A stretch of 64,000 nt of DNA, taken from an uncultured Bacteroidales bacterium (lineage in GTDB: Bacteria; Bacteroidota; Bacteroidia; Bacteroidales; UBA932). The notes beneath the pieces are model-generated. The model worked only from the letters and a program-made list of their open reading frames with translations. It made no database searches and was not told where the DNA came from. The stretch covers positions 1 to 64,000 of the forward strand of contig ONCE01000007.1 in the NCBI GenBank assembly GCA_900316245.1. The letters are read 5' to 3'. Made by a program: the position numbers and the translations under genes. Shown one piece after another: positions 26,613 to 55,551 of this stretch (position 1 is its first letter; each line of letters starts with the position of its first letter).

Positions 26613-26660
26613 AGTTTGCGTTTATACCGAAGCTTGTCCCCGAGCCCCTACGTTAAACTT

Positions 26661-26824
26661 GACAAGGCAGGTCTTCTGACTGCTCCCGGCGCGGCCGCCT
26701 TCTCGCTTTCGCAATGGCATGGATGACCGGACCGTTAAGGAGTTCACAGCTGCGGGCACAGTTCCGGACTTTCACCGGCTTCCCTTTTAAGGTATCTTCG
26801 GCACGAAGCATACTCACCTTTGTC
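26661..26824 (-). promoter_or_regulatory. Cobalamin riboswitch upstream of btuB
   Basis: On the minus strand the conserved core GCCGGTGAAAGTCCGG (26764-26779) is followed by a CTGTGCCCGCAGCTGTGA block and the B12 box AGTCAGAAGACCTGCC (26666-26681). P1 can form between GACAAAGG (26817-26824) and CCTTGTC (26661-26667). Just downstream, GACAAG (26633-26638) can compete with P1 by pairing CTTGTC (26661-26666), which is a plausible expression platform. The family represses B12-uptake genes when adenosylcobalamin or another corrinoid binds. Confidence 0.95.
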
Positions 26825-26830
26825 CGGGCA

Positions 26831-26838
26831 CAAAGGTA
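26831..26838 (-). promoter_or_regulatory. -7 box TACCTTTG for the riboswitch-btuB transcript
   Basis: Exact TAnnTTTG match on the minus strand, ending 6 bases before the 5' strand of the riboswitch P1 stem, so the RNA would begin almost at the aptamer. Confidence 0.75.
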
Positions 26839-53671: not shown

Positions 53672-54574
53672 ATGAAGGAAATCTATTTTGCAGCAGGATG
53701 CTTCTGGGGAGCACAGCACTTCTTCGCCGGCGTGGACGGAGTAAAGGAAGCCGTGGCGGGTTATGCCAACGGAAACGGAGAGAACCCCTCTTATGAAGAA
53801 GTCTATACAGACACCACCGGCTTTGCCGAGACGGTGCGCGTAACCTATGACCCCAAGCGCATCAGCGTGAAGGAACTCACGGAGCTGTACTTCACCATCA
53901 TCAACCCCCTGAGCCTCAACAAGCAGGGCGGAGACATTGGCATTCGCTACCGCACGGGCGTATATTATAAGGATGAGGCCGACAAGGCCGAAGCCCTGCC
54001 CGTCTTCGAGGCCGTCTCCAAGCGCGTGGGAGCCCCGCTGGTGGTGGAACTGGAGCCGCTGCGCAATTTCTACCTGGCCGAAGAACGCCACCAGGACTAC
54101 CTGGACAAGAACCCGGACGGCTATTGCCACGTTCCGCTCAAGACCTTCCGCTACCTGCGTCTGTACCAGGACATCAAGCTGTTCCTGGGAGACGAGACCG
54201 ACCCTGTGGCCCGTATGGCCAATCTGGTGGCCCTGGTTCACGAGCGTATGCATTTCTTCTGGACCGGATTCTACCGCGTACAGGGAGAACAGCTGGTACT
54301 GGGACCCTTCCAAGGCCCGGAGGCCTGCTTCCGCATTGGCTTTGGCAAAGGCGTGTGCGGCAGTGCCTGGAAAGAAAAGCGCACCCTGGTGGTTCCCGAC
54401 GTAGAAGCCTTCCCCGGCCACATCGCCTGCTCTTCCCTCTCCCGCAGCGAGATTGTGGTGCCCGTTTTTGAAGGCAACACCACCACTTCCGTCCTGGACA
54501 TCGACAGCAAGGAACTGGCTATGTTCGACGCCACCGACGCCCTCTGGCTGGAAAAGATTGTAGAAGTACTGTGA
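53672..54574 (+). CDS. msrA: Methionine sulfoxide reductase A fused to free-Met-R-sulfoxide reductase (MsrA-fRMsr)
   Basis: 300 residues with two enzymes in one chain. Residues 1-162 are MsrA, with the catalytic motif GCFWG (Cys10) and the NPLSLNKQGGDIGIRYRTGVYY block. Residues about 165-300 are a GAF-type free methionine-(R)-sulfoxide reductase with FWTGFYRV, LVLGPFQGPEACFRI, GKGVCGSAW and GHIACSSLSRSEIVVPVF; all three family cysteines are present (219, 229, 253). MsrA reduces the S-epimer and fRMsr the R-epimer of free methionine sulfoxide, so the fusion would cover both. folP starts within its stop (GTGA). Confidence 0.9.
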   Translation: MKEIYFAAGCFWGAQHFFAGVDGVKEAVAGYANGNGENPSYEEVYTDTTGFAETVRVTYDPKRISVKELTELYFTIINPLSLNKQGGDIGIRYRTGVYYKDEADKAEALPVFEAVSKRVGAPLVVELEPLRNFYLAEERHQDYLDKNPDGYCHVPLKTFRYLRLYQDIKLFLGDETDPVARMANLVALVHERMHFFWTGFYRVQGEQLVLGPFQGPEACFRIGFGKGVCGSAWKEKRTLVVPDVEAFPGHIACSSLSRSEIVVPVFEGNTTTSVLDIDSKELAMFDATDALWLEKIVEVL

Positions 54575-55551
54575 TAGGTAACATCCATATCATGGGAATC
54601 CTCAACCTCAACGAGGATTCCTTTTTTGCCGCCAGCCGCACCAAGGCCAACGAGGTAGCGGCCCGCGCCGCCCGGCTCTTTGAAGAAGGGGCCGATGTCA
54701 TAGACCTCGGTGCCTGCTCCACCCGTCCCGGCTCGCAGCAGCCTGATGTAGAAGAAGAATGGCGCCGCCTGGAACCGGCCCTTAGGGAACTTCTGGAGGT
54801 AGAAGGATACTCCCTTCCGGGGGTCTGTGCACCCCCGCACCGAGGTAGGGGGAGGGGCCCGCAGATTTTTGGATATTTTCGGAGGGAGCTTGCTTCCGGA
54901 GAAAATGTTCAAAAAGCTGTGGGAGGGGCCGGAGTGAAGCGAAGCGTAACGGAGTCCCCCGGAAGGGAGTATCCTTCTATCTCCATAGACACTTTCCGGG
55001 CAGAGATTGTTCGCCGCACTTACGATACCATCGGCCCTTTTCTGGTGAATGATATTAGTGCGGGGCATCTGGATCCCGAGATGCTGGAGACGGTAGGACG
55101 GCTGGGTCTCCCCTACGTGGCCATGCACATGAGGGGCACGCCGGAGAATATGCAGCAGCTCACGGATTATACGGACATTGTCAAAGATATTGAGGCTTAT
55201 TTCCGGGAGTTTGCCCAGATGGCAGAGGAAGCCGGCATCAAGGAATGGATCCTGGACCCGGGCTTTGGGTTTGCCAAGACCATTGAACAGAACTATGAGT
55301 TGATGCGGCGGATGAACGAACTCAAGGAAGCCTTCCCGCAGGAGATCCTGGTAGGCGTTTCCCGCAAGAGCATGATCTATAAAGTTTTGGGCATCACTCC
55401 CGAAGAAGCGATGCCCGCAACGCAAGTCTTGAATTTTGCCGCTCTGGAAAGGGGCGCCACCTGGCTTCGTGTGCACGATGTAGCCCCCGCCGTTCAGACG
55501 GCCCAACTTTATTCTACAATGTATACGTCGTCTCCCGGGGCGGCAAAGTGA
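54571..55551 (+). CDS. folP: Dihydropteroate synthase with a 64-codon palindromic in-frame insertion
   Basis: 326 residues, where about 265-280 is usual. FolP condenses DHPPP with p-aminobenzoate in folate synthesis. Family blocks are intact: HIMGILNLNEDSF (start), GADVIDLGACSTRPGSQ, SISIDTFRAE, NDISAG, YVAMHMRGTPENMQ, ILDPGFGFAKT, VGVSRKSM and LRVHDV. Residues about 75-138 between RELLE and SISIDT are not found in the family and are encoded by a long palindrome. The GTG at 54571 overlaps the msrA stop; an ATG at 54592 is the alternative. Its 3' end overlaps the convergent ftsB-like gene by 43 bases. Confidence 0.92.
   Translation: MIGNIHIMGILNLNEDSFFAASRTKANEVAARAARLFEEGADVIDLGACSTRPGSQQPDVEEEWRRLEPALRELLEVEGYSLPGVCAPPHRGRGRGPQIFGYFRRELASGENVQKAVGGAGVKRSVTESPGREYPSISIDTFRAEIVRRTYDTIGPFLVNDISAGHLDPEMLETVGRLGLPYVAMHMRGTPENMQQLTDYTDIVKDIEAYFREFAQMAEEAGIKEWILDPGFGFAKTIEQNYELMRRMNELKEAFPQEILVGVSRKSMIYKVLGITPEEAMPATQVLNFAALERGATWLRVHDVAPAVQTAQLYSTMYTSSPGAAK
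54794..54985 (+). repeat. 192-base palindromic element inserted in frame in folP
   Basis: The 30-base ends 54794-54823 and 54956-54985 are inverted repeats of each other with one mismatch. An inner pair, 54858-54880 and 54901-54923, is complementary at 19 of 23 positions around a short centre (54881-54900) that is itself nearly palindromic. The length is 64 codons and there is no stop in the folP frame. Removing it would restore a normal FolP length of about 262. Confidence 0.85.

Follow-up and report, generated by a model that had tools for sequence, protein, structure and literature searches.

Palindromes that are translated as part of proteins are best known from Rickettsia, and are described here across a genus of gut Bacteroidales. 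In MITEs, such as ERIC and NEMIS, the terminal repeats are common to the copies. According to PMC10969869, which cites Ogata 2000 and 2002, RPEs are palindromic, multi-copy sequences of roughly 100-200 nt, many of which lie in frame in metabolic genes, and MITEs are non-autonomous, have inverted ends and can create in-frame fusions. The CGTC-tagged REPs, as described by Di Nocera et al. 2013 (PMC3733652), are short stem-loops with stems of 8-9 bp, a loop of 4-5 nt and a CGTC tag; they are reported from Bacteroidetes, have intragenic copies and no dedicated transposase, some families lie in palindromic targets, and a CGTC end tag is also described for RPE-4 and RPE-6. Coding palindromes of the mitochondria of Nematomorpha are, according to the abstract of PMC6649704, long inverted repeats in translated genes, in which both arms encode conserved host protein. 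Among openly licensed PMC titles and the starts of their abstracts, no description of a family like the one studied here was found for Bacteroidales.

The palindrome was found in folP, the gene for dihydropteroate synthase, of an uncultured Bacteroidales bacterium (assembly GCA_900316245.1). The window analysed is the whole stretch of 64,000 nucleotides from position 1 of contig ONCE01000007.1, and the features of the locus are collected in Table 1. Among the six inverted repeats of the window (at least 18 nt long and at most 300 nt apart) the folP palindrome is the longest, followed by one of 24 nt with 79% complementarity. Its outer arms, 54794-54826 and 54953-54985, are 33 nt long, complementary at 31 of 33 positions (94%) and spaced by 126 nt; for the inner pair, a count by hand gave 19 complementary positions out of 23. 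The 192 nt correspond to 64 codons, the folP frame continues across them without a stop, and PF00809 (Pterin_bind) was matched in two stretches of the ORF (E 9.4e-62, Pfam). The first-pass annotation, which had proposed inverted-repeat ends, a second inner pair and an in-frame insertion of 64 codons, is confirmed in these points. The borders that it gave, 54794 and 54985, are the limits of complementarity and not demonstrated ends of a mobile unit: the outer arms are not common to the other genomic copies and continue into the flanking FolP codons. The part shared with other copies in blastn spans approximately 54815-54964 (query 22-171), and the hairpin 2 module also occurs with other ends elsewhere in the genome (G000:C13:56458-56553, 90% identity, blastn). 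No tRNA was detected in the window; a Cobalamin riboswitch was identified at 26649-26837 on the - strand (83.8 bits). The gene upstream of folP (53672-54574) presumably encodes a fusion of MsrA with a free methionine-R-sulfoxide reductase of the GAF type, as its motifs suggest.

Table 1. Features of the folP locus (positions in the window).
Feature	Position	Strand	Evidence
folP (dihydropteroate synthase) ORF with insertion	54571..55551	+	open frame of 326 aa, Pfam PF00809, AlphaFold2 model
Palindromic element, delimited by self-complementarity, 192 nt	54794..54985	+ (own top strand = + strand)	inverted-repeat search, blastn
Left arm, site-specific part, 25 nt	54794..54818	+	pairs with right arm; absent from other genomic copies
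Right arm, site-specific part, 25 nt	54961..54985	+	pairs with left arm; absent from other genomic copies
Core common to dispersed family (GGGGG...CCCCC)	54819..54960	+	blastn, family alignment
Hairpin 1 (GTGC ACCCCC GCAC)	54827..54840	+	covaries in family
Hairpin 2, inner module (arms 54858-54880, 54901-54923)	54858..54923	+	self-complementarity
Conserved 3' block (GGGAGGGGCCGGAGTGAAGCGAAGCGTAACGGAGT)	54921..54955	+	among the family's most conserved stretches

AlphaFold2 modelling on an alignment of 27 FolP proteins resulted in a mean pLDDT of 81, with values mostly above 90 outside the inserted region and below 50 for residues 80-131, located between a helix (60-77) and a strand (137-140). 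About 50 of the 64 inserted amino acids are predicted to be disordered, and in the model the insert falls in a helix-to-strand loop. In such barrels these loops lie on the side facing away from the active site.

The same position was surveyed in 52 FolP loci, which gave 39 distinct alleles, two of them from other genera (L063, L084), after nine loci without a recognisable left motif (among them L082, which starts inside the gene) and four duplicates were set aside. Nineteen of the 39 alleles have a short canonical segment without insertion (e.g., ...RREFPDARVSIDT...), nine hold the folP-palindrome family, with both orientations represented, five hold other palindromes, two are remnants, three are short (31-32 codons in the region) and in one the loop is longer and does not fold strongly; all classes other than the family were assigned by eye. 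In all 39 extracted alleles the segment is open in frame. The closest relative found, L080 (87% FolP identity), has the same segment, and the insertion in folP is therefore not very recent. A segment conserved across all relatives is thus not what was found: apart from L080, most relatives lack it or carry a different one. A further in-frame palindrome family with a SGTFARTGSRSDVEE-like peptide was observed in folP of other species (L073, L075, L077 and L078) and beside a folP-type element in one M20 peptidase of genome G037 (L154:6680-7978). Core-less palindromes, perhaps naked arms or another family, were seen at the same sites in folP of L079 and in murB of G003 (L338).

A blastn search of the own genome with the folP palindrome returned 16 rows at E<=1, including the query itself and its two arms. 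With a covariance model built from 13 copies, 19 copies were identified in this genome at E<=3e-6, and two weaker ones. Matches at E<=1e-3 were present in 38 of 81 genomes, namely the own genome and 37 of 48 relatives of the same genus, and in none of 32 genomes representing other Bacteroidales families (one per family); in this search stricter filters were used, by which weak matches are lost, and the best 35 candidates per genome were scored. The DNA is thus present in many copies outside folP. The span of the family by the model is 97-203 nt at E<=1e-4. The named relatives are for the most part MAGs of Bacteroidales, with rumen and gut samples as a frequent source, and all data are draft MAGs, in which palindromes assemble badly. 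An origin from a phage or plasmid was rejected, as blastn against phage and plasmid collections gave no match at E<=1e-3. Membership in a known RNA family was likewise rejected, as nothing in Rfam exceeded the gathering threshold; two chance-like matches at E<1 scored far below it. Seven copies in G037 (L146-L152; C59, C3, C11, C38, C5, C2, C10) are near-identical and share their arms too; several of them are flanked by the same other short repeats, and duplication of a composite cluster may explain some. G038 contains a separate abundant inverted repeat (about ATAATCCTCGTTCGAAATTTGAACGAGGATTAT; query about 172-250) with dozens of matches in that genome.

Many copies lie inside genes. In the own genome, at least five of the 19 copies interrupt a conserved gene without breaking its frame (folP, truA, mtaB, ygiQ and a trmH-like gene for a SpoU/TrmH-like methyltransferase), and in G037, with 21 matches, nine of the 18 copies fetched lie in folP, murB (two), tilS, yggS, ygiQ, truB and the genes for an M20 peptidase and an aminotransferase. 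Overall, the host genes in frame are folP, truA, trmH-like, mtaB, ygiQ, murB, truB, tilS, yggS, M20 peptidase and aminotransferase, named by NCBIfam/Pfam, by which the aminotransferase, M20 and trmH-like proteins are resolved to family level only. The first core motif of sense copies is in phase 0 in folP, truB and the trmH-like gene of G011, and in phase 1 in the own trmH-like gene, mtaB, ygiQ, yggS and the aminotransferase gene; antisense copies occur as well, in several phases. With at least two sense phases and antisense copies, the open frame therefore looks like a survival filter and not like a fixed design.

Sites other than folP are also variably occupied. The 18 TruA alleles comprise four with the folP-palindrome family, five with REP-type peptides, four with other insertions and five empty ones (three of 21 loci yielded no segment, and two genomes give two alleles each); the 17 trmH-like alleles comprise five with the family, in both orientations, two with another palindrome, four of REP type and six empty ones. 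In both sets the classes other than the family were assigned by eye. For ygiQ seven of nine extracted alleles were filled, and for truB five of 17; since the patterns caught nine of 28 fetched ygiQ loci, and the truB alleles represent 17 genomes from 42 fetched loci, these fill rates are not estimates for the genus. As judged from these sequences, palindrome families unrelated to each other recur in the same protein loops, and CGTC-REP-like elements with HSRLDRES, SERSEES and VIPGLTG peptides, by eye separate families, lie in the same loops as the folP-type family. The unfilled alleles of murB in G005 and yggS in G028 are deletion remnants, and therefore the state before insertion is known mainly from more distant relatives. 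When empty and filled sites were compared for a target site duplication, no clean pair of recent origin was available. One MurB protein has two family copies at two separate loops (L153:1107-2510). A gene at L015 (G000:C33:70809-73824, around locus 1400-1560), which resembles a superoxide dismutase gene, contains a different palindrome (CATTCCGGGCTTGACCCGGAATC, HSGLDPES peptide) twice; as translated by eye, both copies are in frame.

Because copies are dispersed, orthologues without the element exist and copies lie in frame in several genes, the family is read as mobile. The reading to which we give a probability of roughly 60% is that of non-autonomous mobile palindromes of about 100-200 nt, of which a single strand of defined polarity would fold, dispersed in one Bacteroidales genus and lying in frame in protein loops. 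Indeed, the first-pass annotation had considered a mobile repeat that tolerates life in coding genes, similar to RPEs and in another phylum, and the dispersal, the orthologues without it and the several in-frame host genes speak for that view.

The arms, approximately 20-30 bp long, are complementary within each copy and mostly different between copies. In 99 distinct copies, aligned by fitting to the covariance model, 97.2% of the arm cells of the outer helix were paired and all 19 arm pairs had double changes; for hairpin 1 (helix 2) 98.8% of the cells were paired and five of six pairs changed on both sides, and for helix 3 86.5% were paired without double changes. Covariation over the whole 31-pair structure was 0.818 compared to 0.187 for shuffled and at most 0.143 for slid alignments; the count of pairs with double changes was a weak measure (26 versus 24.4 in shuffles, 46/500). 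Over the outer 14 nt, complementarity between the two arms of a copy was 92% and the identity of arms from different copies was 44%, compared to 34% (sd 18%) for shuffled letters, counted with gaps because ungapped counting understates the identity between copies (one listed pair was a mere shift). Arms were at chance level in 207 of 250 pairs with cores 80-90% identical and in 15 of 25 pairs with cores 90-95% identical (together 222 of 275), and in only five of 32 pairs with cores at least 95% identical, where the mean arm identity was 82%. Therefore, young relatives mostly share their arms, with exceptions such as yggS and murB of G037, in which the cores are identical and the arms unlike. 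In the FolP arms, 12 mismatches at 191 positions were counted within nine alleles and 354 differences at 1216 positions between eight alleles, and the host flank of 45 nt differed by 29% between alleles, the same as the arms. Assuming one origin of the FolP insertions, it is concluded that the arms diverge at the speed of the host sequence and are kept complementary. Paired changes in both arms were also seen when G019 and G037 were compared at an intergenic site (C44).

As a candidate mover, Y1 transposases were considered. The own genome contains seven Y1_Tnp matches at E<=1, three of which are over the Pfam cut-off, and HUH motifs were identified by eye in four of its ORFs. Within the genus, 35 of 38 element-bearing genomes had Y1_Tnp (E<=0.01), compared to four of 11 element-free ones (Fisher p 3.5e-4, ancestry uncontrolled), leaving three element-bearing genomes without Y1_Tnp and four element-free genomes with it. 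The numbers of elements and Y1_Tnp matches were correlated (Spearman 0.57), and in genomes at least 85% complete the association had p 0.015 and the correlation was 0.62; the correlation is confounded by ancestry and incomplete genomes. Within 1.5 kb of the seven own matches no core motif was found, except for one stray 8-mer in L030, and an autonomous partner next to the copies was rejected on this ground. RAYT-type Y1 transposases possibly move the element.

These proteins bear on the alternative that the family is new but otherwise of the ordinary REP/REPIN type that belongs with RAYTs, with outer arms that are fast-decaying ends travelling with the element. In its favour, Y1 proteins with HUH motifs occur and track the elements in number, most near-identical cores do share arms, and REPs inside genes are reported from other bacteria (PMC3733652). 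However, neither tag is enriched in the left arms (on the element strand, GTAG was found in 10 of 99 versus 14.6 expected; CGTC in four of 99 versus 9.8 expected), arms that stay complementary yet differ at cores 80-95% identical do not suit ends that travel along, and the own genome has no RAYT gene flanked by the element. This alternative is considered doubtful.

A sub-hypothesis that is compatible with mobility, and also rather unlikely, is that the host flank on one side is copied in inverted orientation on insertion; one arm would then be old host sequence and the other its new inverted copy. In FolP, the peptide GREFP/GREYP, similar to RREFP of the insertion-free alleles, is encoded by the right arm and not by the left, and the left arm of truA in G037 resembles the empty site in G038 (both by eye). 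The idea was strong at first at FolP and yggS, but was weakened because some of the unfilled yggS and murB alleles are remnants and because a loose GG(R)TAY motif recurs in the arms (found in 34 of 99 copies versus 8.8 expected; a motif chosen after looking). Moreover, at the intergenic site G037:C44 both arms are additional relative to the own genome (G000) and G034.

The copies have a strand polarity. On the element's own strand, G.T mismatches in the arms outnumbered A.C mismatches 103 to 33 (p 1.4e-9), both in gene-borne copies (36 versus 10) and in the others (67 versus 23). Counted per copy, 50 favoured G.T and 11 did not, with 38 ties, and with repeats of a site dropped by hand the ratio was 80 to 26 in 82 copies. 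Pairing that scores G.T and A.C alike was used for this count, and the covariance-model alignment was not, because it rewards G-U. The top strand was the more stable one in 98 of 99 copies with RNA parameters and in 96 of 99 with DNA parameters. The difference between the strands was 11.1 kcal/mol compared to 6.3 kcal/mol in dinucleotide shuffles, and exceeded the shuffles in 83 of 99 copies; about 6.3 kcal/mol of it can thus be put down to composition. The wobble bias and the excess in stability over the shuffles therefore suggest a role for a single strand that folds and has a fixed polarity. The chemistry of IS200/IS605-type and RAYT enzymes acts on single-stranded DNA, and by analogy the polarity seems to fit this chemistry or an RNA intermediate.

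Covarying stems and a wobble bias on the top strand are also what is expected of a functional RNA. That the family is a conserved structured RNA or regulatory element selected for its function and only incidentally located in genes is nevertheless improbable, since it occurs in both orientations, in many unrelated genes, in several reading phases and with presence and absence among related species, has no Rfam match over threshold, and its bias is not clearly on the mRNA strand. On the strand of the host mRNA the counts were 28 G.T and 18 A.C (p 0.18, not significant; orientations of the 30 gene-borne rows were assigned by hand), and selection at the mRNA level was rejected. The suggestion of the first-pass annotation that an RNA element is spliced from, or acts on, the folP mRNA found no support either: the FolP alleles are all open, Rfam gave nothing over threshold, and the excess of G.T lies on the strand of the element itself and not on that of the mRNA. 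That no mobile element exists, and that palindromes arise anew in tolerant loops through indels and template switching at hairpins, is the least probable alternative, for although FolP alleles L079, L073 and L077 have long palindromes without the family core and arms can extend into host codons, a core of at least 60 nt common to unlinked copies at 80-100% identity is not given by such growth, which is contradicted for the core and may still explain the outer arms.

Within the reading as mobile palindromes, the comparison of single sites between sister species is informative. In yggS, G005 and G037 have the same arms and different hairpin modules; in ygiQ, G037 and G038 have the same arms and the core in opposite orientation; in truB of G005, G037 and G038 the arms are identical and the core is nearly the same; and in the M20 gene G037 is distinct from G005/G038 in core type as well as in arms. 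What is unusual about this family is that cores are exchanged and inverted between complementary arms that are bound to their site. Two effects seen here, the homogenisation of the arms and the inversion of the spacer, are reported in PMC8604942 for template switching between inverted repeats.

In a proposed mechanism, the mobile form would be the folded single strand of the core, on which RAYT-type Y1/HUH transposases would perhaps act in trans. By switching templates from one arm to the other, replication would keep the arms complementary and flip the core, and recombination between dispersed copies would swap cores and hairpin modules. An insertion would be kept in a gene only if its length is a multiple of three, the frame is open and the peptide lies in a tolerant loop; the folP segment would be translated and not spliced. 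A more specific version, offered tentatively and at clearly less than even odds, resembles a socket and a cartridge: the arms, made or renewed on site and not carried along, would persist at a gene site through several species, the core would be inverted or replaced, by which an in-frame protein segment is switched wholesale, and selection would act on the folded single strand of fixed polarity.

Since dozens of related genomes allow individual sites to be compared, the mode of insertion, the complementarity of the arms and the exchange of cores become testable, as does the way in which conserved enzymes accommodate 40-64 foreign residues. Such peptides may also be present, unrecognised, in the protein databases for this clade.

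Compared with the known systems, the folP-type family is most similar to RPEs: it is palindromic and multi-copy (19 own copies, 97-203 nt) and lies in frame in unrelated protein genes. It differs from them in its phylum, in arms that vary between sites and are nevertheless complementary, in module swap and core inversion at a site, and in having no conserved peptide in one preferred frame, being read in several phases and both orientations; unlike RPE-4 and RPE-6, it shows no enrichment of a CGTC end tag. With REP/REPIN elements and RAYTs it shares short folding palindromes, several RAYT-type Y1 proteins in the genome and strand polarity, but it is longer, has multiple hairpins and lacks enrichment of the GTAG tag. 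The CGTC REPs resemble it in being reported from Bacteroidetes, in their intragenic copies and in having no dedicated transposase, whereas its arms have on average 28.5 paired bp and CGTC is not enriched. Like MITEs, it is non-autonomous with inverted ends, but its outer arms differ between most copies (0.44 versus 0.34 shuffled, with a within-copy complementarity of 0.92), although arms are shared in 27 of the 32 pairs whose cores are near-identical. The palindromes of Nematomorpha are likewise inverted repeats in translated genes, and the dispersed core of the folP-type family has no counterpart in the abstract that describes them (PMC6649704). Because tests for a preferred frame, for enriched tags and for common terminal repeats were negative, the family is not filed as RPE, GTAG REP, CGTC REP or MITE. 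It is concluded that the folP palindrome is real, that there is good support for a dispersed palindrome with coding copies and that a mobile element which works like the RPEs explains it best.
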